From contig JAAYDC010000015.1 in the NCBI GenBank assembly GCA_012729455.1, forward strand, positions 1 through 64,000: 64,000 bases of DNA, given 5' to 3'. The notes under the pieces were generated by a model. The model did not search any database and was not told where the DNA came from. It saw only the letters and a program-made list of their open reading frames with translations. How positions within the stretch are numbered: position 1 is the first letter of the stretch; every line of letters begins with the position of its first letter. Below are positions 14,780-33,012 of the stretch, one piece after another. The stretch is from Chloroflexota bacterium. Lineage in GTDB: Bacteria; Chloroflexota; Anaerolineae; UBA1429. Both the position numbers and the translations under genes were made by a program.

Positions 14780-15868
14780 ATGGAGATCTTGCAGGTACGC
14801 TCTGATCTCACCTACACGCGCCGCGCCATCGAGAGCGGGCAGATCACGATCGGCTTTATGGGCGGATCCATCACCGACTCGCGCCCGGGCTGGAACTGGC
14901 CCGAGCCGGTGTTGCGCTGGTTCAAGGCGACCTATCCACAGGTGCGAGTAACGGTCGAGAATGGCGCCATCGGCGCGACTGGCTCGGATCTCGCGGTCTT
15001 CAGGGCAAAGGAAACGCTGATCGACACGGGCTGCGACCTGATCTTTGTCGAGTACGCCGTCAACGACTCGGGCTTTGAGCCCGAGCGGCGCCGCCGCACG
15101 CAGGAGGGCCTGCTGCGCAAGCTGCTGGCGCCCCCCGGCCGCGATGTGGTGCTGGTCTACACCTATATCCAGGATTTCTATAACGATATGATAGCCGGCC
15201 GGATGCCCGTCAGTATCGCTGCGCTCGAGACCCTGGCAGAACACTATCGGCTCAACAGCGTCTGGATGAGCCTGTACGCTCTGCAACGCGTGCAGCAGGG
15301 TTTTCTGCGCTGGGAGGAGTGGCTGCCCGACGGGCTGCATCCTCAGGCACACGGCAGCCTGGCCTATGGCGAGGCGGTCATCCAACTGCTAGAGCCGATG
15401 CTCGCCGGAAAAGTGCAGGCGCCCGAACGCGGCGCTCTGCCGGAGCCGCTCAACGCAGCCCATTGGAGTAATTCGGTCATCCTGCCGCTCAGTGAGGTGC
15501 GTACCGAGGGGCCCTGGCTCCTGCGGCGCTGGTACAACGAGAGCAATCCCTTTATGCCCTATGTGCTGGATACTGCCGCGGTAGGCGCCCGCTTTTCGCT
15601 GGATTTCGAGGGACGCGGGCTGGTGCTGGGCTTTGACTATGGCTCTCAGTCGGGCGAGCTGCGCTACCGGCTGGATGACGGAGAGTGGCGCGAGACCAAA
15701 CGCGAGCGTTTTGCCTGGGCCGGGCCGACTGGCTGGTACAAACTCGAGATCGTGGCGGATGACCTGCACTATGGCAAGCATCACTTTGAGGCCGAGGTGA
15801 TCCACGGCAACCTGCCCGAGTGCAAGGGCACCGACATGCGCTTGGGGTTGGTCGGGGTAGTGCGCTAG
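14780..15868 (+). CDS. SGNH/GDSL-family carbohydrate esterase-like protein
   Basis: The protein is 362 aa. Block I IGFMGGSITDSRPGW (Ser nucleophile, near residue 30), the glycine block GAIGATGSDL, the asparagine block VEYAVNDSG and block V DGLHPQAHG (Asp/His of the triad, near 185) give a complete SGNH hydrolase in the first 200 residues. A second beta-rich domain of about 150 aa follows. Such architectures remove acetyl or acyl groups from polysaccharides. No signal peptide is visible. It ends the rightward operon; its last 4 bases overlap the tail of the convergent kinase gene. Confidence 0.82.
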   Translation: MEILQVRSDLTYTRRAIESGQITIGFMGGSITDSRPGWNWPEPVLRWFKATYPQVRVTVENGAIGATGSDLAVFRAKETLIDTGCDLIFVEYAVNDSGFEPERRRRTQEGLLRKLLAPPGRDVVLVYTYIQDFYNDMIAGRMPVSIAALETLAEHYRLNSVWMSLYALQRVQQGFLRWEEWLPDGLHPQAHGSLAYGEAVIQLLEPMLAGKVQAPERGALPEPLNAAHWSNSVILPLSEVRTEGPWLLRRWYNESNPFMPYVLDTAAVGARFSLDFEGRGLVLGFDYGSQSGELRYRLDDGEWRETKRERFAWAGPTGWYKLEIVADDLHYGKHHFEAEVIHGNLPECKGTDMRLGLVGVVR

Positions 15869-17736
15869 CGCACAAACGAGCGCCAGGCGCCCTTGATGAA
15901 TCCCACAAGCAAGCCACCCACAAGTAAAAGCAGCCATGGCACAATGACGACCGCGGCGGCGATCAACAGGGGGCCTAACAGCGCCGGCAGGATATAGCCA
16001 TACCAAGCCTCAGGGTGTGCCAGCGACACCCAGTGGGTGACGAGCTGGCGGTCTGCGGGCAGGTAATAGAGCCCTGTCACGATCAGGGCTGCCAGCACCA
16101 GATACCACAGAAGGTGCAGCCATGGCCAGCGCACAAAGGGGCGTGCCAGGGTGCTGCGGATGCGCTCATAGCCGCTCAGCAGCCCGCCGGTGGTGCGGTA
16201 TGCCTCAGGGATGGCGGAAGACAGCGCGCGCCAGCTGATGCGCCACAGCTCGCGCAGTATCGAAACACGCACTGTGACGGAAATGGTAAGGGGCTCCTGG
16301 TCAGGCAAGGTGATGCGCACCTGGCCATGTTGTTCCTGGCGCAGCGGCAGGGCTTCGGCATGTACCGCCACGCGCAGCTTGGCTGGAGCTTGGACTGCTA
16401 TCGGCAATTCGGTGGGAAACACCTCCAGCCAAGGCTGGTTGACAGAAATTTGCGCGCGCGTATATCCGCGCGTGGTATTGATCAGCTCTACATAGCGCGA
16501 AATACCCGCCTCGCGCGCCACCCTCCCGAAATCGAGCTGGGCCGGATCCGCGACGGTGTGCGGGCGCGTCAGCCCGGTATCCACCACGCGCAGAAACTGC
16601 TCGAGCCCGGCATCCTGGTCAGGCACCGCCTGGACGATTTCATTTGCCGCCAGCACCAGGTCGAGGCGGTTGAGATCGCGCAGCCAACGCTGGTAATCGC
16701 CATGGTACATAAAGCTCTTAGCCGCTTCCCAGTGCTCGTCAGAAAGGGGCGCCAGGGTTGCCACCGAGCGGATCTGAGCACCGCCCGGAAAGGTAAAGGT
16801 CTCGACCTGGCGGTTGGGGGTGGCAAACAGCTCGAGCGCCTGGCGCAGCTGGCGCGCGTGACTGCGCTCGTTCGGGTCGGGCTTGAGGGCACGCTCGAGG
16901 GCTTGGCTGATCTCACGCGGCATCTGGCCCAGCTTGGGGTATTGGAAGGGATGCATGCGCGGATCGTCGTCAGTGAGGAGTTGGTAGAGTGTCACCGCAA
17001 GAGAAAAGACGTCGGAACGCGGCACCGCTTTACCCTGGTACTGCTCGGGCGGAGCATAGCCCTCGGTGCCATAGATCGAGGCTGGCGCGCCATGCAGCGC
17101 GTCGGGCGGGATATTCTGGCGGGCAGTGCCGAAATCCACCAGACGCACCTCGCCAGCCTGATCATCCAGGATCAGGTTGGCAGGCTTGACGTCCTGGTGG
17201 ATCACGGGGCGCGGTAATCCGTGCAGATATTCGAGGATGCGGCAGGCCTGGATGGCGTAGCGGATCACATCCTCGCGCGGCAGGGTGCGCACCGGCGGGA
17301 TCGCCACGCCATCCGGGTTGATTTGAGTGACGAACGACTCAAGGTTGGGTCCCCGGATGTACTCCATCACGATATAGTAGCGTCCTGCCTCGACAAAAAA
17401 GGCATAGATGCGCGGGATGCCCGAGTGAGAGAGCATGCTAAGGGTACGGCCCTCTTCCTCAAAGCGCCGCTGTGCGCGGTCACGCTCCTCGGGATTGGCG
17501 GCATCATAGTAATCCAGCATCTGCTTGACGACGCACAGCCGGTCAAAGGCGCGGCCGTCACGCGCGAGGTAGACCGCACCCATGCCGCCTTTTGAAAGGG
17601 ACCGTTGGATGCGGTATATACCGCCATCGAGGGTCGACCCGACGGTGATTTTACCCGCCAGCGCGGCGCTGCAGTACGGACAAAACCGCGAACTGGGCAA
17701 GACCTCGCGCTGGCAAGCAGGACACTTCAGGCTCAC
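15865..17736 (-). CDS. Membrane-anchored Ser/Thr protein kinase with zinc ribbon and Ig-like domain
   Basis: The protein is 623 aa: an N-terminal zinc ribbon (C-x2-C...C-x2-C, residues about 5-22), then a kinase domain (about 30-290), a linker, a beta-sandwich of the ASH/Hydin type (about 400-520, with QLDFGRVAREAG), and two transmembrane helices near the C-terminus. The kinase looks active: SKGGMGAVYLA loop, VVKQM lysine, HQDVKPANLIL catalytic loop (HQD instead of HRD), DFGTA and a PPEQY block. The GTG start overlaps the preceding FHA gene by 4 bp. It is the last gene of the five-gene signalling cassette and probably its membrane receptor. Confidence 0.88.
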   Translation of the reverse strand: MSLKCPACQREVLPSSRFCPYCSAALAGKITVGSTLDGGIYRIQRSLSKGGMGAVYLARDGRAFDRLCVVKQMLDYYDAANPEERDRAQRRFEEEGRTLSMLSHSGIPRIYAFFVEAGRYYIVMEYIRGPNLESFVTQINPDGVAIPPVRTLPREDVIRYAIQACRILEYLHGLPRPVIHQDVKPANLILDDQAGEVRLVDFGTARQNIPPDALHGAPASIYGTEGYAPPEQYQGKAVPRSDVFSLAVTLYQLLTDDDPRMHPFQYPKLGQMPREISQALERALKPDPNERSHARQLRQALELFATPNRQVETFTFPGGAQIRSVATLAPLSDEHWEAAKSFMYHGDYQRWLRDLNRLDLVLAANEIVQAVPDQDAGLEQFLRVVDTGLTRPHTVADPAQLDFGRVAREAGISRYVELINTTRGYTRAQISVNQPWLEVFPTELPIAVQAPAKLRVAVHAEALPLRQEQHGQVRITLPDQEPLTISVTVRVSILRELWRISWRALSSAIPEAYRTTGGLLSGYERIRSTLARPFVRWPWLHLLWYLVLAALIVTGLYYLPADRQLVTHWVSLAHPEAWYGYILPALLGPLLIAAAVVIVPWLLLLVGGLLVGFIKGAWRSFVR

Positions 17737-18725
17737 GCACCGACCTTGAAGATCAACTTGACGCGTCCGGCATCGATCTCGTCGCCTGATTTAAGCGGCT
17801 GCGGCGTGCCTGGCTGCAGGCGTTGACGGTTGAGCAAGGTAAAGTTGGTGCTGTTGAGGTCCTCGATCGTATAGCTGCCGCCACTCGAGCTGATTTTAAA
17901 GTGCTTGCGCGATACACCGCCATCCACACCGCCGTGCGCTGTCAGGTCGATTTCGGGGAATACGCCCGAGTAAGCGTCTTCGCGGCCCACCACCACCTCG
18001 GCAACAGCGGGCAGCGGCAACTCGGTACCGCTGGCGGATACCACCAGGCACGCCTCAGAGGCCGCGGCAGCCGCTTGCGACACAGCCGGGGTGGGTTCGA
18101 CTGCTGCCGTTGCTCCGGCGCCCTTGAGGGCTGTCCCACAGTTCTCGCAGTAGACGTCCTGAGCGGTTACCTGGGCGCCGCAGCTCGGGCAGTTGAGCCC
18201 GCCGACAGCCGGCGCCGCAGCATCGACTGGTGCGGCCTGCGACTGCACCGGCGCAAGCCCGCGCTGGTTCTTTAGGTCGGATCCGCAGGCAAAGCAAAAC
18301 TCGTCGTCATCCTTGACACCTGCGCCGCAATCGCGGCAGGTATGCGGGTCAGCAACAACCGCGCTGGCCGCCTCTGGAGCTACCACAGGGATTTGTGCGC
18401 TGGTCACTGGCTCGGGAGCCGCCAAGGGCGTGCCACAGTTTTGGCAAAATGCCTCGCCTGGCAGGTTCTGCGCCCCGCATGACGGACAGATCGCCTCCGA
18501 AACAACAGCCGCCGGCGCGGCTTGTGGTTCGGCCGGGGCAGCTGCGGGCACAGCAGTCGGCTGCTCAGAAGCAGCAACAGGTTCCGGCTGTACCGCTGGC
18601 TGAACAGATTCGGTTTGCGGGGCAGCTGCGGGTTGGGCCTCTTTGGCGGGCAGGCGAGTGCCGCACTGATCGCAAAAGATGGCGTCATCCTGGACGGTAT
18701 TCTGGCAATTGGAGCAGGTGCGCAT
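17733..18725 (-). CDS. Four-zinc-ribbon protein with C-terminal FHA domain
   Basis: The 330-aa protein is a probable phospho-threonine reader of the cassette. Four C-x2-C...C-x2-C zinc ribbons lie at about residues 4-22, 84-103, 130-148 and 180-199, separated by Ala/Pro/Glu-rich linkers. The FHA domain fills about 225-328 with VVGREDAY, GVSRKHFKI and EDLNSTNFT, the Arg, Ser/His and Asn positions that bind phosphothreonine in known FHA domains. The start has GGAG 6 nt before it, and the gene begins 2 bp after the vWA gene. It likely bridges the phosphorylated partners; its target is not known. Confidence 0.85.
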   Translation of the reverse strand: MRTCSNCQNTVQDDAIFCDQCGTRLPAKEAQPAAAPQTESVQPAVQPEPVAASEQPTAVPAAAPAEPQAAPAAVVSEAICPSCGAQNLPGEAFCQNCGTPLAAPEPVTSAQIPVVAPEAASAVVADPHTCRDCGAGVKDDDEFCFACGSDLKNQRGLAPVQSQAAPVDAAAPAVGGLNCPSCGAQVTAQDVYCENCGTALKGAGATAAVEPTPAVSQAAAAASEACLVVSASGTELPLPAVAEVVVGREDAYSGVFPEIDLTAHGGVDGGVSRKHFKISSSGGSYTIEDLNSTNFTLLNRQRLQPGTPQPLKSGDEIDAGRVKLIFKVGA

Positions 18726-18727
18726 GG

Positions 18728-20008
18728 TTATTCTCCTTTATCTGGCGCTGTCGGATTCTCGGTCAGGCGCTGAGTGAGTTTACGGGTCTGGTAATGCAGC
18801 TTTTTCGTGCCGCTCGATGACATCTGTCCGGAGCATTCCAGGTTATTGGCCTCCTGCTGAGCCGCCTGCGCCAAGTCGGTTTCACCAAGTTCGAGCAGGC
18901 GGGTTGCGGCGGCGCGCAGCTTTTGGGTAGCGCCGGCGATGTCGCCGCCCTGAGCATCCGCCAGGGCACGCGTCTGCAGCTTGTATGCCGTCACACGCTC
19001 AACCAGGTTCATCACGCGCGCGTCGTACTGGGCGGTCTGAGTGGGATCGGTGCTGTAGTTGACCACAATATCGCCGCGCACACTGGCCCCCGTGATCCCC
19101 TGCGTGGGCAGATCATAGATCAGCTGGGTTTGGGCGATGCGGTAGCGCCCGGCTTGGCGCGGCGGCACGAGGATCTCGACCAGCAAAGCCTTGCCCGAGA
19201 CGGCGTCCATCTCGCCCAGCGGCACCTGCACGTCAGCCTCGCCCACGGGGGTATAGCCGAGGTTGGTGATCATCGGCGTGACCTGCCACACCTGACGAGG
19301 GCTCACGCCTGCCACCAGTCGCATGATCAGCTGGGCGTCGCGCAAGACAGCCTGCTGTGCACGCTCGACCGTCTGGTTAAAGAGCGGTGCAATCTCGTCG
19401 GCCGAGACGATCTGGTCGGCATTGCCGAGCGAGCGGGCTGCGACTTCATCCAGCAGCTTTTCGTTCCAATCGTCTCCCAGACCCAGCACCTCGATGGGGA
19501 TGCGGTGTTCGCCGGCTTCTTTGGCGAGACGCAGGCACTGCTCTTCGTCGCCAAAGGTCTGCCCATCGGTGAACAAGAGCAGCTTGTTGGTGCGCTCTTC
19601 GGAATACTGCCGATAGACTTCGCGCAGACCGAGGCTCATCCCGCGCGACATCTGCGTCCCTCCGCCCGCCACGATGCGCTGCACGCGCTGGCTCAGGTTG
19701 CCCTGCTTGCCCAGCGGGGCACCGCCAGCCACCACGGTGGCCGAATCGTTAAACACCGTCAGCGAAACCAGATCGTCGGGAGCAAGCTTTGCCAGTGCCA
19801 GCTCGACAGCCTCAATCAGGCGAGTGAGCTTTTCACCGCGCATTGAACCGGAATGATCCAGCACAAAGCCAATGTTGAGCCCGATGCGCTCCTGACTGAT
19901 GACCGCCTGCGGCTGCGCCTCGACCAGGGCATAGATCAGCTGCTGGCTGTTGGTAACGGGGATATAGGGTTTGTTGAGGGTTACTTTGACCTGAACTGCA
20001 TCGGACAT
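18728..20008 (-). CDS. von Willebrand factor A (vWA) domain protein
   Basis: The protein is 426 aa with the vWA domain at about residues 40-220. The metal-ion-dependent adhesion site is intact: GFVLDHSGSMRG (DxSxS), GTQMSRG (Thr) and LLFTDGQTFGD (Asp). A beta-rich domain and a helical tail follow. There is no signal peptide, so it is cytoplasmic. I moved the start to the ATG at 20008 because GGAGG sits 8 nt before it; a GTG at 20017 overlaps that site. In TerY-type triads a vWA protein works with a PP2C phosphatase and a kinase, which are exactly its neighbours here. Confidence 0.88.
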   Translation of the reverse strand: MSDAVQVKVTLNKPYIPVTNSQQLIYALVEAQPQAVISQERIGLNIGFVLDHSGSMRGEKLTRLIEAVELALAKLAPDDLVSLTVFNDSATVVAGGAPLGKQGNLSQRVQRIVAGGGTQMSRGMSLGLREVYRQYSEERTNKLLLFTDGQTFGDEEQCLRLAKEAGEHRIPIEVLGLGDDWNEKLLDEVAARSLGNADQIVSADEIAPLFNQTVERAQQAVLRDAQLIMRLVAGVSPRQVWQVTPMITNLGYTPVGEADVQVPLGEMDAVSGKALLVEILVPPRQAGRYRIAQTQLIYDLPTQGITGASVRGDIVVNYSTDPTQTAQYDARVMNLVERVTAYKLQTRALADAQGGDIAGATQKLRAAATRLLELGETDLAQAAQQEANNLECSGQMSSSGTKKLHYQTRKLTQRLTENPTAPDKGE

Positions 20009-20042
20009 GCTGTCCACCTCCTGTCAGAACATGCATGGCGCC

Positions 20043-21254
20043 CTAGAGCACTTGTACAACGATCACGCTGATATTGTCTTCACCGCCGGCGAGGTTTGCA
20101 TTGCGCACCAGACGCTCGCAGGCACGCTGCGGGTCGGATTCAGCCAGCAGTACCTCTTCGATGCCGTCGTCGTGCACCATCTCCCACAGGCCATCTGAGC
20201 ACAAGAGCAGGCGCTCCCCGGCGCCGAACGGCACCTGGAAGAGGTCGCCCTGCTGGTCGGGCCGGTCGCCGACCGATTGGTAGATCAGGTTGCGGCGCGG
20301 ATGCGTATAGACATCGTTGGGTTGAATCTGGCCGGTATCCACCAGGCGCTGCACCAGCGAGTGGTCTTTCGTCACACGTTGAAGCCCGCTTTGGTTATGC
20401 AGATAGGTGCGGCTATCACCGATGTTGGCGATGTACGCGACGCCGCCTGCCAGTAAAGCACACGTCAGGGTGCTGGTCATCTGGCTATTTTGGGCCCGAC
20501 GCGCCTCCAGGATGGCAGAGTTAGCGGCCTGCACCGCCTTCAGCAGGAGCTGCGGTATGGCATCCGCCGGAGGCAATTTGCCGGCTGCCGCTGGCGTCCA
20601 GGTGCTTGCTTCCAGTGCCTGCCAGAGCGCCTCGACCGTCATTCGGCTGGCGACCTCGCCCGAATCCTGTCCGCCCAGACCGTCAGCTACCACGAAAAAG
20701 GCCAGCTCGCAGACGCCATAGCGAGTAAAGGCGCGTCCCTCGACGTAATCTTCGTTTTGGTCACGCTGAGCCCCCTTGTCGGTAGCCAACCCCCAGGATA
20801 AGCGCAAACCGCCGGGTGCCTCGGCCGCAAGGGCGGGCGGTTGCTCGGGCATCAGGTAGCCATAATAAGTGCGGCCGCCCTCGATGAATACCAGGTCATG
20901 CTGCGCAGGAGGCGTCAGCAGGTGCTCATCAAGCTCCAAAGTGCGGTAGGGCTCAAGCATGGCGCCGCATTTGGCGCAATAGGTGTCGGTTGCGCTGTTC
21001 TCGTCCGACCCGCAGGCCGTGCAATGCGCCAGGTCGACAGCCTGGTAGCGGTTGCGGGTGGGGGTATCCTTCAGAACTGCGGTAATGCGGTAGCGCCCAC
21101 CCAACAAGGTGCCCGACGCGAGACTCTGCTCGGCGGGCAGCACTGGTGCAGTTGATGGTTGCGTTTGCGCGTCGTCAGAGGGCAGGGGGATACCACAAAA
21201 GGCGCAAAAGCCAGCCTGTTCACGATTGTCACGCTCACATGCTGGACATTTCAT
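20043..21254 (-). CDS. PP2C-family Ser/Thr phosphatase with zinc ribbons
   Basis: The protein is 403 aa. The first zinc ribbon is at residues about 4-22 and a second one is near 80-100 (HCTACGSDE...YCAKCGAML). The PP2C domain occupies about 150-400. All metal-site motifs are present: QRDQNEDYV, VVADGLGGQDSGEVAS, IGDSRTYL, LLLCSDGLWEMV and GGEDNISVIVV. It should dephosphorylate the products of the two flanking kinases. The start has GGAGG 7 nt upstream, 3 bp after the kinase-FHA gene, so these two are made together. Confidence 0.92.
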   Translation of the reverse strand: MKCPACERDNREQAGFCAFCGIPLPSDDAQTQPSTAPVLPAEQSLASGTLLGGRYRITAVLKDTPTRNRYQAVDLAHCTACGSDENSATDTYCAKCGAMLEPYRTLELDEHLLTPPAQHDLVFIEGGRTYYGYLMPEQPPALAAEAPGGLRLSWGLATDKGAQRDQNEDYVEGRAFTRYGVCELAFFVVADGLGGQDSGEVASRMTVEALWQALEASTWTPAAAGKLPPADAIPQLLLKAVQAANSAILEARRAQNSQMTSTLTCALLAGGVAYIANIGDSRTYLHNQSGLQRVTKDHSLVQRLVDTGQIQPNDVYTHPRRNLIYQSVGDRPDQQGDLFQVPFGAGERLLLCSDGLWEMVHDDGIEEVLLAESDPQRACERLVRNANLAGGEDNISVIVVQVL

Positions 21255-21257
21255 CCC

Positions 21258-22748
21258 TTACCTCCCATCCGGGTTGCTCTCCAGGAGCAGCTCGAGTTCA
21301 ATTCGTCCAACGCGCAGGCGGTCGTGAGCTAACATAGCCTGTGCTACAACAGGTTGCAGGGCGCGCCCGTTTATAAAAGTGCCGTTGGTGCTATTCAGGT
21401 CCGTGACGGTAACCAAGGGGCTGCGCACCGTGATGCGGCAGTGATTGCGCGAGATATAACCTTTTGGATCATAGTAGTCCAGGTCAACCTGCACGGGCAA
21501 ACTTCCGCCGCGGCGTCCAAGCAGATGGTCGCCATCCTGCAGGGAAAAGACCTTGTTATTGCCAACCTGGTTGACGATGCGCAGCTGCACACGCGGCGCA
21601 CGGCTCAGGCTACAGCAGCACTGACGGCAAAAGTGGGCCTGTTTGCGGTTAAAAGCTCCGCAGAGTGGACATTGGTTGACATAACCGTCGATATTAACAA
21701 CCGTGCTCGGTTTTGCCCCGGCAGAGCGTGGTGTCGGTCTGCTCTTGTTAGGCACTGTCGCTGGGCGCGACAGCGCTGGGCGAGCCGGTGCAGCGGTTGG
21801 CAATACCTTGTGCTGCGTCAGAGCGGGTTGCGGTGTAGCCAGCACACACTGAGGTGGCCCACTGCGGTATTCACGCCTGATCTCGGCAATAATCTGCTCC
21901 ATACGGCGGCGTTCGTGCCGCGAGAGGCAGTCGTAGAGGGCACGTTGCATCTCGCGGGCGCTCTGGTAGCGAGCCTCGCGATTGTGGGCCATGGCGCGGT
22001 CGATAACAGCTGCCATCGCCTCGCTGACGGCTGGATTCATCTGCCTCAGCGAAGGACGCGGTGTCGGCACAAAGTAGGGCAGGGGGGCACTGTTGGCCAA
22101 CAGGTGATACATGGTAGCGCCCAGGGCATACAGGTCGGCACGCGCGTCGGTCTGCTGCTCACCCCATTGCTCGGGCGCGGCATAGTTTTCAGAGCCCATC
22201 GTGATCGTATCACGCCGTTGTCCGAACTTGAAAGTGCGCGCGATGCCGAAATCGATCAGCTTAATACGGCCGCTGGGGGTTATCATGGCGTTGCTGGGCT
22301 TTAAATCGCGAAAGATCACGGGCGGCTTGCGGCTGTGCAGGTAATTCAGCACCTCACAGATCTGGATAGCCCAATCCAGCACCGTGGAGGGCAGCAGCGG
22401 TGCGCCGGTTTTTTCAAGACGCTTGGCCAACGATTCGCCTTGAACAAAATCCATCACCAGGTAAACGCGCCCATTTGATTCAAAAAAAGCCGCCACTTTG
22501 GGCAGGTTTGGATGATCAAGCCCTACCAGGATATTGGCTTCCTGCGTAAAGAGGGCACGTGCTTCGTCCAGAGAGTGGGTATCATCGGGATCGGAGCGCA
22601 GCTCTTTCATCGCCCAGGTGTAGGTGCTGCCGTCCGGCAGCTGTTCCTCGACCTGGTACACCCACGCCATACCCCCGCCAGCCACCAGCCGGCTGACGCG
22701 GTAGCGGCCCTTTACGATTGTGCCCGAGGTTAGTGGTTGTGTATCCAT
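21258..22748 (-). CDS. Ser/Thr protein kinase with zinc ribbon and C-terminal FHA domain
   Basis: The protein is 496 aa. The kinase domain (about 12-275) has a complete active site: LVAGGGMAWVYQV loop, the lysine in AMKEL, FRDLKPSNAMI, DFGIART and AAPEQW. A proline-rich linker, one zinc ribbon (about 358-378, CPLCGAF...CRQCCCSL) and an FHA domain (about 395-485, with HLLGRRGG, ISRNHCRI and DLNSTNGTF) follow. It has no transmembrane helix, unlike the kinase at the other end of the cassette. It is the first gene of the five and lies back-to-back with an MgtC-like gene. Confidence 0.92.
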   Translation of the reverse strand: MDTQPLTSGTIVKGRYRVSRLVAGGGMAWVYQVEEQLPDGSTYTWAMKELRSDPDDTHSLDEARALFTQEANILVGLDHPNLPKVAAFFESNGRVYLVMDFVQGESLAKRLEKTGAPLLPSTVLDWAIQICEVLNYLHSRKPPVIFRDLKPSNAMITPSGRIKLIDFGIARTFKFGQRRDTITMGSENYAAPEQWGEQQTDARADLYALGATMYHLLANSAPLPYFVPTPRPSLRQMNPAVSEAMAAVIDRAMAHNREARYQSAREMQRALYDCLSRHERRRMEQIIAEIRREYRSGPPQCVLATPQPALTQHKVLPTAAPARPALSRPATVPNKSRPTPRSAGAKPSTVVNIDGYVNQCPLCGAFNRKQAHFCRQCCCSLSRAPRVQLRIVNQVGNNKVFSLQDGDHLLGRRGGSLPVQVDLDYYDPKGYISRNHCRITVRSPLVTVTDLNSTNGTFINGRALQPVVAQAMLAHDRLRVGRIELELLLESNPDGR

Positions 22749-28324: not shown

Positions 28325-29407
28325 TTAGTCGTCGCGCGATGATTCGGTCGGAGACGCCACATCGGTGGGGCTGCGCCCATAAGTGGCAACCATGTCGGCT
28401 AGCCGTTCCTCTTCGGTCTCCCACGCGTATACCACGCGCGTCGTATCGGGGTGTTGGTGGCCCAGCAGGGCGGCGACCCACTCGAGCGGCATACCTTCAT
28501 TGAGCAGATCCTGCGCGCGCCGGTGCCGCAGTGAGTGCGGCGAGGTACTGGCATACAAGCCCTCGGCTTCAGCAGCCTTTTTGACTAGCAGCCAGGCATG
28601 GCTGGGACTGATCGCACGGCCAAGGCCACGGCGATGCGAGACAAACAGTGGTGCACGCAGCGAATCCTGGCGTTCACGGGTATAGTCGGCGATCAGTTGG
28701 CGGGTATCTTCGGAGAGAAATACGGTGCGCGGCTTGCCGTTCTTGGTAACGACCAGGCGCAGGCGCGTGGCGCGTCCATCGAGCACGTCCTCGCGCGAAA
28801 GTGCCAGGGCTTCTGAGATGCGCATGCCCGTGTCATACAAAAGCGCCATCAGGCAGCGGTTACGCAGGAGTGTTAACCGCGCCATGCCGGGTTTCTCTGG
28901 GAGCGGTTGGCGCAGGTAGTGAGTCAATACACGCATCACCTCGGGATCCACCTTGCGCTGCTTGTAGCCCTCGCGTCGCTGGCCACGGCCCTCATCGATG
29001 CGGCGCGCCATGCGCTCATAGGTAATGCCGGGAGGCAACAGGTCGCGCAGGTCTAACCAGTTCATTAAGCGACGTGCAGCCACGAGATAGGTACGGCTTG
29101 TACGCGTCGCTGCGTGCGAGTGGGCGTTTTTGGGGGGCATATAACTATCGGGATAAGCCTCGCGCAGCCATACATTGAATGATGCCAGGGTCTCTTCGGT
29201 GATCTCTGAAAGGGGCACCGGCGCGAGCTCGTCAGCAGCCTGATAGTTTCCAGCGCTGGAGTGGAAATAGCGAACTAAGGCATTCAAACCGTGGCGGTAG
29301 GTGCGTTTGGTGAGTGGACTCAGCTCGAGTTGCGTCAACATCACTTCGCCGGCCTGGTTGATCGTTTCGGGAGGATCCTGGGCGGGTGAGGTAGCCAGGG
29401 CGCTCAT
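28325..29407 (-). CDS. Tyrosine recombinase/integrase (XerC/D-like)
   Basis: This is a site-specific DNA recombinase of about 360 aa. A SAM-like core-binding domain fills about residues 20-115 and the catalytic domain about 150-340. The catalytic set is visible: Arg in DTGMRISEALAL, Lys in VVTKNGKPR, His-x-x-Arg in SPHSLRHRRA, His in LGHQHPDT and the Tyr nucleophile in RVVYAWETE. I chose the ATG at 29407 because GAGAGG lies 6 nt before it; an ATG at 29413 touches that site. No phage or transposon genes adjoin it, so it may be a chromosome-dimer resolvase type or a domesticated integrase. Confidence 0.88.
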   Translation of the reverse strand: MSALATSPAQDPPETINQAGEVMLTQLELSPLTKRTYRHGLNALVRYFHSSAGNYQAADELAPVPLSEITEETLASFNVWLREAYPDSYMPPKNAHSHAATRTSRTYLVAARRLMNWLDLRDLLPPGITYERMARRIDEGRGQRREGYKQRKVDPEVMRVLTHYLRQPLPEKPGMARLTLLRNRCLMALLYDTGMRISEALALSREDVLDGRATRLRLVVTKNGKPRTVFLSEDTRQLIADYTRERQDSLRAPLFVSHRRGLGRAISPSHAWLLVKKAAEAEGLYASTSPHSLRHRRAQDLLNEGMPLEWVAALLGHQHPDTTRVVYAWETEEERLADMVATYGRSPTDVASPTESSRDD

Positions 29408-29430
29408 GGGCATCCTCTCTGCATGATTAT

Positions 29431-29569: not shown

Positions 29570-29597
29570 TTGAGACCGCCACGTTTTTGGCTATAAT
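29570..29597 (+). promoter_or_regulatory. Promoter predicting a leaderless mRNA
   Basis: -35 TTGAGA (29570-29575), 16 nt, perfect -10 TATAAT (29592-29597). The usual start of transcription, about 7 nt beyond the -10, falls on or next to the ATG at 29605, so the transcript would have no leader. Earlier start codons (29587, 29599) would lie inside or upstream of the -10. Confidence 0.6.
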
Positions 29598-29604
29598 AAT
29601 GTGC

Positions 29605-32600
29605 ATGTCCAAAGCAGCATCATCCCAGTTGGGTCCCTCCGAGGCGCTGCAACGCTGCCCCAAATGTGGAGCATTGAACCAACCCTCAGCGGCTGTCTGC
29701 AGCGCGTGCCGCACGGCGCTGGTCGAGATATGCCCGCGCTGCCAAACGCCCAGAAAGTGGTACATCACCGAATGTGCGGTGTGCGCCCACCAAAGCGATA
29801 TCAACGCCCAGGAGTTTACTCGTTTATATAGCCCCGCGCCAACCAAACTGCTCAAAGAGCGCTTTCGTATTCTGGAGACGCTCGCTTCGAGCAATATCAG
29901 CAGCGTTTATCGCGCTGAGCGGCTCGATACCGCATCATCGCAGCTGGTACGCATTACCGAGCTGCGCACCACAGCGCACTTTCGCGCAGCCGAAAAGCGT
30001 GCCCTTGAGACCAGCGTTGTGGCATCTGTCAATCGCTGGCGTCAGGTCGAACACCCCAGCCTGCTGCCAATCGACGAACTGATCGTCGAGACGGAGCGCT
30101 ATTATGTCATATCACCTTATGTGGCAGGCATCAGCTGGCATACCCTGGCCCGAGATAACCACTGGCGGCCTCCTGTGGGCTTAATTTTGCTCTGGCTGGA
30201 ACAGTTATGTCTACTCTTGCACGCGCTGGAGCCCCACCGGCCCGACCTGAACCTGGCCTTTGTCGCCCCACAGCATCTGATGTCCACCACTTCCGGCTTG
30301 GCGATGCTGATCGACCACGGCTTGACATCCCTGGTAGCTCCGACAGAGTTCGGACCCTACGGCAGTATAACGGGATACGCGGCGCCTGAGCTGGCGCGCA
30401 GCCAGCCCACTCTGCAATCCGATATTTACACACTCGGCCGCTGTATTGCAGCCCTGCTGACGCATCGCTCACTGGAGAACACCTCCGGCACGCCTCCCAT
30501 CAGCCTGCCCGGGCTCGACAAGGCCGCGCAGTCGGCCATCAAACAGGTACTGACGGCCATGCTGGCGCAGGATCCTGCCAAGCGCGCCGATTCGGTGCAG
30601 GTCCTTTTAGAGCGTGTACAAAAAGCACACGCCAGGGTGCCGAACCTCGACGAGAGTGACTGGATCGCCCATTCCTTACGGCCAGTGGTGAGCGATTCAC
30701 GCCCTGTGCCGCGCTCTCGTAGTGCCATGTCACGGCGAGCTGCGAGCGCCGATTCGATGGAGGCGCTGGGTTTTACGCCCGATCCGCGCTACGGGATACA
30801 GGCGTCTGAGCGTGTCGCGCCGCCTGCACCGCCGCCCGCACGCACCTCTGCGCCCTCCCCTGCCGCGACCAACCCACCGCGCGCGGCGGCACTCACCGTT
30901 ACACCCAAGGAAATCCGCTACGAGCCCGACCCGGGCAATCCAAAGCGACGGGTGGTGCTGACGCTGCACAACCGCGGCAGTAGCCCCATCGAGGGCCGCC
31001 TGCGCCCTGCCCTGCCCTGGCTGAGTGCGCCCGGCAAGCTCTTTGTGATACCCGGTGGCAAGAGTGCTCGCGCCATCGTCACGATCGACGCTGACCTGGT
31101 CCCAGCTGGCGATAACCTCCTGCCCCAGGCACTGGCTATTGAGACCAACGCCGGCAGCCGCTGGATCAGCTTTAGAAGCCTTGTACGCGGTACGCCCAGC
31201 CTGCATCTGGCCAGCACACAGCTGGATTTCGGCACACTGACATCCAACGAGCCGCGCCAGCTGATGCTGAGCATCGAGAACCACGGCACGCTGCTCTTGA
31301 GCGGGGCGGCCAGTGCGCGCGTACCATGGGTACAGGTGCCGGGCAGCAAGTTCAACTGTCCGCAAGGCACCAGCCGCGACATTCCCATCAAGCTGCTGCC
31401 CAGCATGCTGCCAAACGGACCACAGACCACGCCAGCCGCCATTGCGCTGGATACCAACGGCGGTCAGGCCCTGGTAGCGGTTTCCGCCTGGCGCCAGCGC
31501 CCAGCCCTCGTACTGGAGCCAACGGTGTTGGATTTTGGCGCGCTGCCACCCGACGAGGCGGTTGAGCGTAGCCTGAAACTTGTTAACCGCGGCGATGGCC
31601 CTGCACATGGCCAGGTAATCAGCAATCACCCATCACTTTGGCTTTCGACTGACTCCTTTAGCCTCGAGGCTGGTGCAACTGTGTCGTTGCGTGCTGTGCT
31701 CACAGCAAAGGACCTGCCCGCCGGCCGGCAGGAGCTTTCCGGTGCACTGCAGGTCCTCCACAGCGATGGTACTGTACTCGCGCTGGATGTGCGTGCTACG
31801 GTGATGGCGCCCCTGTTGGTATTTGAGACCGCCGGCTTTGTTTTTGGGAGCGTGGCATTGGGCAAACTCACAACAGCCCAGCTGCTCATCAGCAACGAGG
31901 GCAACGCCCCATTCGCGGGCATCCTGGAGGTGCACCCCCCTTGGCTGCAGGTAGGACCCAACGACCTGCGGTTGGAGCCCGGCACTACCCTCACGCTGAG
32001 CGCCACTGCCGATAGCAACCAGCTGGGCAGTGAAGCGGACTATGACTCTGAGAATGCGGTGTCTATCCTCAGCCTTGATACGGGTGCATCGGTTGCCGAG
32101 ATCGCCGCGCATATAGCCGTTATCCAGCCGTTGATGGAGCTATCCGCTTCAAGTATCAATTTCGGCTACATCCCACGCGGTGAATCCGCCCAACAGGAGC
32201 TGGTGATCAGCAACTCAGGCAGCAGTCTCTTGGCCTGGCAGGCGCAGAGCACTGCGGATTGGCTCGAGATCAGCCCAACCCAGGGCACCTGCCGGCCTGG
32301 CACCGCTCAGGCAGTCGTGCTGAGGGCTTATTCGCTGGCATTTGATGCCGACGAGCGCGAGGTTGAGAGCATCCTGACGATTAATTCGGATGGCGGCCGC
32401 GCCAAGTTGACGGTTCATGCCGGCATCGCGGCGCCGGTACTTGCGGTCGAGCCTGCTATTCTGGCGTTGGAGAGCATTAACGCCCACGCTGTAAACGGCT
32501 CACTGCGTATCTTTAACCGCGGCCTGGGCGAGCTCTCCGGCACCCTGAGCAGCTCAGATAGCTGGTTGGTGCCCGAACGGCTCTCGTTCGTGTGTGCCAC

Positions 32601-33012
32601 GGGCCGCTCGGTCGGAATAACTATCGTGTGCGATCTTGAGGAGCTGCCGATCAACACCAGCTCACTCTCCGGCGAGGTGCGCATCGCCTCCAACGGCGGT
32701 GAGGGCGTGGTCGAGGTACAGCTCGCGATTGTCGCACTGCCCGAGCTGGTGGCCCCCGAACGCTTGATATTTGTGCCCGATGGCCCAGCCTGGACTGCCA
32801 AAGTAGCCCTGCAGAACATCGGCAGGGCCCTCCTGAGCGCCGATTTGGCAACCACTCACCAAGCGCTACAATGTGACCGTAGCCGTGTCGATATCAAACC
32901 CGGCAAGAGCGTGCGTTTAAAACTGCATTGGAACAGCAGCCAATTCCCCGGCCCCGGCGAAGCTGGGCTGGTGATCACCCATGATACTAACGTGGAGACC
33001 ATCACATCTTAA
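29605..33012 (+). CDS. Large zinc-ribbon pseudokinase with about seven ASH/Hydin-like repeats
   Basis: The protein is about 1135 aa. Two zinc ribbons (about 17-60) precede a kinase-like domain (about 85-340) that keeps the fold (LKERFRILETLASSNISSVYRA, APELARSQPTLQSDIYTLGR) but lacks key residues. The glycine loop is lost, VRITEL replaces the V-A-I-K lysine region, the HRD loop reads DLNLAFVAPQHLM without the catalytic Asp, and DFG is LIDHG. From about 425 to the end, roughly seven repeats of about 100 aa carry LDFG...L-I-N-G signatures of ASH/Hydin immunoglobulin-like domains. There is no signal peptide. It is 9 bp from a c-di-AMP receptor gene. Confidence 0.85.
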   Translation: MSKAASSQLGPSEALQRCPKCGALNQPSAAVCSACRTALVEICPRCQTPRKWYITECAVCAHQSDINAQEFTRLYSPAPTKLLKERFRILETLASSNISSVYRAERLDTASSQLVRITELRTTAHFRAAEKRALETSVVASVNRWRQVEHPSLLPIDELIVETERYYVISPYVAGISWHTLARDNHWRPPVGLILLWLEQLCLLLHALEPHRPDLNLAFVAPQHLMSTTSGLAMLIDHGLTSLVAPTEFGPYGSITGYAAPELARSQPTLQSDIYTLGRCIAALLTHRSLENTSGTPPISLPGLDKAAQSAIKQVLTAMLAQDPAKRADSVQVLLERVQKAHARVPNLDESDWIAHSLRPVVSDSRPVPRSRSAMSRRAASADSMEALGFTPDPRYGIQASERVAPPAPPPARTSAPSPAATNPPRAAALTVTPKEIRYEPDPGNPKRRVVLTLHNRGSSPIEGRLRPALPWLSAPGKLFVIPGGKSARAIVTIDADLVPAGDNLLPQALAIETNAGSRWISFRSLVRGTPSLHLASTQLDFGTLTSNEPRQLMLSIENHGTLLLSGAASARVPWVQVPGSKFNCPQGTSRDIPIKLLPSMLPNGPQTTPAAIALDTNGGQALVAVSAWRQRPALVLEPTVLDFGALPPDEAVERSLKLVNRGDGPAHGQVISNHPSLWLSTDSFSLEAGATVSLRAVLTAKDLPAGRQELSGALQVLHSDGTVLALDVRATVMAPLLVFETAGFVFGSVALGKLTTAQLLISNEGNAPFAGILEVHPPWLQVGPNDLRLEPGTTLTLSATADSNQLGSEADYDSENAVSILSLDTGASVAEIAAHIAVIQPLMELSASSINFGYIPRGESAQQELVISNSGSSLLAWQAQSTADWLEISPTQGTCRPGTAQAVVLRAYSLAFDADEREVESILTINSDGGRAKLTVHAGIAAPVLAVEPAILALESINAHAVNGSLRIFNRGLGELSGTLSSSDSWLVPERLSFVCATGRSVGITIVCDLEELPINTSSLSGEVRIASNGGEGVVEVQLAIVALPELVAPERLIFVPDGPAWTAKVALQNIGRALLSADLATTHQALQCDRSRVDIKPGKSVRLKLHWNSSQFPGPGEAGLVITHDTNVETITS

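Follow-up and report, generated by a model that had tools for sequence, protein, structure and literature searches.

A bacterial vWA–FHA gene cassette with its own kinases and phosphatase, and its similarity to the archaeal ArnAB switch

Organization of the cassette

The window analysed is a 64,000-nucleotide stretch from a Chloroflexota bacterium (class Anaerolineae; assembly GCA_012729455.1, contig JAAYDC010000015.1, positions 1–64,000). It contains a cassette of five adjoining open reading frames (ORFs) on the minus strand, which encode a soluble Ser/Thr kinase (termed K1), a PP2C phosphatase, a von Willebrand factor type A (vWA) protein, an FHA protein with zinc ribbons (ZnR) and a second kinase with predicted membrane helices (termed K5). 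The cassette displays similarities to the archaeal ArnA–ArnB pair. Coordinates are listed in Table 1.

Table 1. Features of the cassette (window positions; aa, amino acid positions)
Feature	Position	Strand	Description or basis
K1, kinase + ZnR + FHA	21258..22748	minus	Soluble Ser/Thr kinase aa 20–283, C-terminal zinc ribbon aa 360–377, FHA aa 410–476
ZnR + FHA module of K1, ArnA-like	21279..21671	minus	Domain scan, ribbon count, FHA alignment
PP2C phosphatase	20043..21254	minus	Double zinc ribbon at N-terminus
vWA protein, 429 aa	18728..20017	minus	ArnB architecture, without zinc ribbon
MIDAS region of vWA protein (D54-S56-S58, T121, D151)	19565..19858	minus	Alignment, 26 relatives
C-terminal helical bundle of vWA protein, aa 333–415	18773..19021	minus	Model; counterpart of the phosphorylated RHB domain of ArnB (PMC6509490, PMC12852372)
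Conserved vWA tail TKKLHYQTRKLT, T404/T411/T415	18773..18808	minus	Candidate phospho-acceptor sites
ArnA-like FHA protein	17733..18725	minus	Four ribbons, Pro/Ala linkers, FHA at C-terminus
K5, membrane kinase	15865..17736	minus	Zinc ribbon, Ser/Thr kinase, helical region, Ig-like (ASH/HYDIN-like) sandwich, C-terminal hydrophobic helices
Ig-like beta-sandwich of K5, aa 393–491	16264..16560	minus	Structure model; between kinase and membrane helices

Gene calls are ORF-based throughout. The tight packing given in the original prediction is confirmed: the spacing in the ORF list, from K1 to K5, is 3, 25, 2 and −4 bp, and the 34 bp given there would suit a later vWA start. Pfam agrees with the domain make-up proposed earlier (Pkinase and FHA; PP2C and DZR; VWA; four Zn_Ribbon_1 stretches and FHA; Pkinase), and the metal ion-dependent adhesion site (MIDAS) of the vWA protein is intact. 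By inspection, both kinases keep the DxKxxN/DFG motifs (FRDLKPSN/DFG and HQDVKPAN/DFG), and the metal motifs of the PP2C and the R/S/N residues of the FHA domains are also intact.

Zinc ribbons are present in four of the five proteins, as had been noticed before. There are eight: one in K1, two in the PP2C, four in the FHA protein and one in K5, where the Zn_Ribbon_1 match is slightly under the Pfam cut-off; the vWA protein has none. Seven of the eight display the spacing C-x2-C-x10-C-x2-C.

Comparison of the vWA and FHA proteins with ArnB and ArnA

A single-sequence search of the PDB (phmmer) with the vWA protein gave ArnB as the first hit (8s05_A, E = 1.6e-10), and a profile search placed ArnB second (1.4e-26). 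The structure model (pLDDT, the predicted local distance difference test score, 92.5), whose alignment was made without plasmid sequences, shows a vWA domain inserted in a beta-sandwich, together with a C-terminal helical bundle. Foldseek comparison of this model with 8s05 (the ArnAB complex) and 5a8j (an ArnB paralogue) gave TM scores of 0.55–0.69 over 420+ alignment columns. The PDB fold search ranked 4fx5, 8s05 and 5a8j in that order, then the inter-alpha-inhibitor heavy chain and, lower down, Sec23/24.

In archaea, ArnA consists of an N-terminal zinc ribbon (C21, C24, C35, C38), a linker and an FHA domain. The ribbon docks on the beta-sandwich and helical bundle of unphosphorylated ArnB, and the ArnA FHA domain binds once threonines of the terminal ArnB helices have been phosphorylated by ArnC (PMC6509490, PMC12852372). 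Phosphopeptides of ArnB include IETTRR, VEQTR and EVTKK (PMC6509490). ArnAB represses motility in Sulfolobales, and in S. islandicus it represses DNA-damage genes (PMC10470591).

The cassette resembles the Sulfolobales pair (PDB 8s05, 5a8i, 5a8j) in several respects: a vWA domain inside a beta-sandwich with a C-terminal helical bundle; a partner with an N-terminal C-x2-C-x10-C-x2-C ribbon, a linker and an FHA domain; adjoining genes (in S. acidocaldarius the locus tags are consecutive, Saci_1210/1211); Thr-Arg/Lys sites in the terminal helices; and, presumptively for the cassette, control by a kinase and a phosphatase. There are also differences. The archaea use ArnC/ArnD and PP2A, whereas the kinase and PP2C of the cassette are encoded in the same operon; to our knowledge the archaeal ArnC/ArnD and PP2A genes are not linked to ArnAB. 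The FHA protein of the cassette has four ribbons, additional ribbons are found on the kinases and the phosphatase, and the host is a bacterium.

The FHA gene lies directly 3′ of the vWA gene in 77 of 112 cases, and 75 of these 77 genes encode a ribbon N-terminal to the FHA domain, the ArnA layout. No zinc ribbon was found in any of the 112 vWA proteins. Ten relatives have invariant counterparts of R248, S272 and N294 in the FHA protein, all four ribbons of which show the C-x2-C-x10-C-x2-C spacing, and in the vWA protein the MIDAS residues are invariant across 26 relatives.

The C-terminal tail of the vWA protein is also conserved. K405, T411 and R412 are nearly invariant, and the last helix carries the motif GTKKLxYxTRKLT or variants of it. 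Of 81 non-redundant vWA proteins, 73 have T-[KR] within their final 50 residues, chance matches being compared with shuffled tails. The density of T-[KR]-[KR] is 0.0151 in the last 50 residues and 0.0004 elsewhere (~38-fold, although homologous columns are not independent). Taken on predicted fold, sequence, partner layout and tail threonines, the vWA protein appears to be ArnB-like.

Several observations weigh against an ArnAB-type reading. Over the whole chain the Foldseek root mean square deviation is high, 5–6.8 Å, and the top match is an actinobacterial vWA protein; thus ArnB is regarded as a relative and not as a proven orthologue. ArnB_C was not found among the Pfam matches listed for the vWA protein. 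GarA, OdhI and FhaA score above ArnA with the FHA domain sequence, and two Chloroflexota FHA partners have no ribbon. Some vWA paralogues retain the tail without an FHA neighbour. The conserved tail threonines sit in a confidently predicted helix, and therefore unfolding or exposure would be needed for their phosphorylation; that of ArnB is reported to progress into buried sites (PMC12852372). Because the FHA sequence is not specifically closest to ArnA, the cassette is described here as one that would work like ArnAB and not as a proven member of that system.

K1 has an ArnA-like ZnR–FHA module of its own, and its FHA domain aligns to that of the four-ribbon protein (39% over 56 aa). This points to docking of K1 on the same hub protein that it would phosphorylate.

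Solo vWA paralogues were found in genomes of families f25 and f61 (loci L037–L042, L044 and L045), with tails mostly of the KTVRL(S/T)D type and not TRKLT. These are possibly a second signalling branch.

Conservation of the cassette and its variable parts

With a threshold of E ≤ 1e-3, which also lets in generic vWA matches, homologues of the vWA protein are found in 239 of 400 Chloroflexota genomes; at E ≤ 1e-30 they are found in 139 of 298 genomes of the same class. About 100 loci, chosen from the top matches for family spread and not at random, were read as ORFs and their neighbours scored. In 71 of 105 Chloroflexota loci the vWA gene has a kinase, a PP2C and an FHA gene on the same strand no more than 6 kb away, and once contig ends are left out the complete four-gene set is present in 56 of 82 loci. 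At least one complete set was found in 64 of 82 genomes and in 33 of the 41 Chloroflexota families sampled, and 50 loci have the exact order kinase–PP2C–VWA–FHA. The loci without a full set are mostly solo or tandem vWA paralogues of some families (L037–L048). Since the gene order repeats in distant families, the linkage is far beyond chance. The tree distances of the four core proteins also correlate above permuted nulls, highest for vWA and FHA (rho 0.79, null maximum 0.12).

Related clusters occur outside the phylum. Plasmids of Nostoc, Tolypothrix and Gloeothece carry a VWA–FHA–PP2C–kinase cluster, and Deinococcus plasmids carry VWA–kinase–FHA–PP2C followed by a second kinase. In the D. 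wulumuqiensis plasmid (L129) this cluster lies directly downstream of pprA and lexA, a single case that suggests a link to DNA damage in that species.

The arrangement is ancient and widespread in Chloroflexota. Its core is kinase–PP2C–VWA–(ZnR)FHA, and the fifth gene is a lineage-specific addition: K5-like genes are confined to the order of the source genome and a few neighbouring families. All five genes in identical order are present in seven other genomes of that order, with three more showing the same genes truncated by contig ends, and family f96 (L076) has all five as well. The original prediction of a phospho-signalling cassette, in which a kinase would write, FHA domains read and PP2C erase, agrees with the recurring linkage. 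Its “expanded five-component” system reduces to four core genes plus the membrane kinase, and of the five-gene conservation it looked for in distant Chloroflexota, the four-gene core is found there but K5 is narrow in distribution and no linkage to defence was found.

The additional part of the core kinase differs by lineage. Most of the relatives tested have a beta-propeller there, L049 and a cyanobacterium have TPR, L058 has predicted transmembrane segments, Deinococcus a beta-helix with SH3 and the source genome ZnR–FHA. Such swaps between lineages suggest that the input varies around an unchanging reader and hub.

K5 was analysed for its domains. Pfam matches its Ig-like domain only weakly (Cep192_D6, E = 0.008), but the model shows a clear beta-sandwich there, and the fold search gave generic kinase matches only. 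The sandwich is probably cytoplasmic, because it is placed between the kinase and the membrane helices; extracellular sensing of the PASTA type was rejected for this reason. It is quite unlikely that K5 is the sensor of a PASTA/PknB-style envelope control, with the soluble proteins as downstream targets and no special vWA–FHA switch. K5 has predicted membrane helices and a PknB-like kinase domain, and an FHA-ABC exporter of Rv1747 layout lies beside the cassette in some relatives, but most relatives keep the four core genes without K5, and the Ig-like domain is on the kinase side, unlike extracellular PASTA repeats. In the mycobacterial PknA/PknB–PstP–FhaA/FhaB cluster, kinase, PP2C and FHA genes are together, as they are in the cassette; unlike the cassette, that cluster has no vWA protein and is tied to rodA/pbpA and cell division.

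An N-terminal J-domain is fused to the vWA protein in seven of 26 members (DnaJ E = 1.3e-20 in L109). That the vWA protein brings clients to Hsp70 under the gate of phosphorylation is nevertheless highly improbable: the source-genome protein and those of many families have no J-domain, and linkage to dnaK, apparent in one relative, is rare. That relative (L136) has the apparent dnaK downstream of the cassette. In L109 and other Anaerolineales-type relatives the DnaJ–vWA gene is followed by an FHA gene, a gene for a conserved protein of 80 aa and one that resembles response regulators of the OmpR type.

Genome context and the proposed switch

The source genome (2.64 Mb, 99.2% complete) has one match to this vWA protein. 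Two of its four FHA domains belong to the cassette, and so do two of its four kinase-like loci, all of which are on the contig of the cassette. The cassette PP2C is the sole PP2C_2 (PF13672) match. The flanks are metabolic and transport genes (GDSL hydrolase, MgtC, aldo/keto reductase, glycoside hydrolases). PADLOC gave only generic kinase and PP2C matches on the cassette, those of K1 and K5 being centred on the kinase domain. The anti-phage kinase systems PD-T4-6 and MADS were rejected, as nothing beyond the kinase domain was matched and the flanks are metabolic; the defence role mentioned in the original prediction is not upheld on the same grounds.

The “TerY-type” label also had to be dropped. 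A TerY-P triad, i.e. vWA, PP2C and kinase as an accessory of Ter-system/stress response or defence, shares the three adjoining protein classes, and there is a weak vWA-TerF-like match (E = 0.002). However, TerD (PF02342) has no match in the genome, the 429-aa vWA protein has the three-part architecture of ArnB and is not a small stand-alone TerY vWA, the core includes an FHA/zinc-ribbon gene, and the flanks and PADLOC matches are as given above; this explanation is very unlikely. Actinobacterial triads in GAP1-N2 conflict systems likewise place a zinc-ribbon kinase, a PP2C and a stand-alone vWA side by side, and to that extent favour it, but the passage that describes them mentions no FHA partner and ties the triads to GTPase systems (PMC7159879). 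No GTPase system was identified beside the cassette.

Kinase, PP2C and FHA reader are also shared with the PpkA/PppA/Fha pathway of the type VI secretion system (T6SS), and PpkA has a vWA domain (PMC1262709), fused to its kinase in contrast to the separate vWA protein here. In favour of a cassette that governs the firing of a contractile injection system, the one PP2C match of the genome is in the cassette, and the same contig has an injection cluster that encodes an FHA-tail protein together with a kinase-FHA. This cluster is ~180 kb away and has its own kinase, T6SS VipB (PF05943) was not found in the genome, and where the gene products of relatives were examined, no injection genes were seen beside the cassette, so that such a role is unlikely.

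The injection cluster itself is outside the window, at ~195–210 kb of contig C11 (L132:5457–14673, L153:4689–10302). It contains sheath, gp19 tubes, CIS_tube-LysM, base_V spike and baseplate J genes; one Tail_P2_I protein is fused to an FHA domain, and a kinase-FHA of 1018 aa is encoded as well. Its control by threonine phosphorylation is possible.

The cassette is probably a bacterial phospho-switch of the ArnAB type with its own kinase(s) and phosphatase. We infer phosphorylation, docking, FHA binding and a membrane input in the following form. The vWA protein, as the ArnB counterpart, would be the hub and the product of the next gene, the ArnA counterpart, its ribbon/linker/FHA reader. In the unphosphorylated state the zinc ribbon(s) would rest loosely on the beta-sandwich and helical bundle of the hub. 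K1 would dock in the same way and phosphorylate threonines of the C-terminal T-[KR]-[KR] helix; FHA domains would bind the phosphothreonines and tighten the complex, which may expose or hide surfaces for an output partner. Dephosphorylation by the PP2C, through its zinc-ribbon-bearing protein, would reset the hub, and K5 would be a membrane-tethered input in the order of the source genome. Docking of the PP2C and K5 by their ribbons is presumed. The original prediction had the ribbons possibly binding one scaffold or nucleic acid; judging by ArnA, the vWA protein is the likely scaffold. This may be the reason for ribbons on four of five proteins: all may dock on the one that has none.

As a guess, the output would be control of gene expression according to stress or growth state, by analogy with the archaeal systems and in view of the J-domain and response-regulator links in relatives. 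The pprA/lexA setting in D. wulumuqiensis, one case, fits a DNA-damage output.

The ArnAB-type reading would bring the archaeal switch to bacteria, where its enzymes are encoded in one operon with it; a 2026 paper on ArnAB regards most ArnB-like folds elsewhere as not engaged in such multi-phosphorylation (PMC12852372). For the uncharacterised kinases of a large phylum it offers a substrate that can be tested, the vWA C-terminal helix, and a reader, the zinc-ribbon FHA protein. More tentatively, a widespread bacterial ArnAB system may exist, with related clusters in Chloroflexota, Cyanobacteriota and Deinococcota, in which a single vWA protein would be the hub and bring in kinase, phosphatase and FHA reader by a common zinc-ribbon docking code. 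If true, bacterial ArnAB would be related to the archaeal ArnAB switch and to the Sec23/24 core fold, and might even be their source. The open-access PMC literature, the scope covered here, yielded no report of a bacterial vWA–FHA–PP2C–kinase operon, the actinobacterial triad excepted; subscription comparative genomics (Aravind/Koonin groups) may mention one.

In L082–L083 (genome G517) and L084–L086 (genome G466), very large arrays bring together some ten or more kinase genes, many of which encode zinc ribbons, with genes for vWA, PP2C, FHA and membrane proteins. Transporters of the Rv1747-like layout FHA-FHA-ABC-ABC2_membrane are found in or beside cassettes (L084:2709–5351 and L058:13511–16000). 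Similar ORFs are present in L056, L059, L081, L087 and L120; of all these transporters, two were checked with Pfam.

A sixth gene, ZnR–kinase–Ig, follows K5 in L031, L032, L033, L076 and L095. In the window, 7 kb from the cassette, a plus-strand gene (29587–33012) may be related to this sixth gene: its product of 1141 aa combines a zinc ribbon, a kinase-like domain of divergent sequence and several Ig-like (HYDIN/ASH) domains. A phage-integrase-family gene is located near this plus-strand gene (28325–29413, minus strand).
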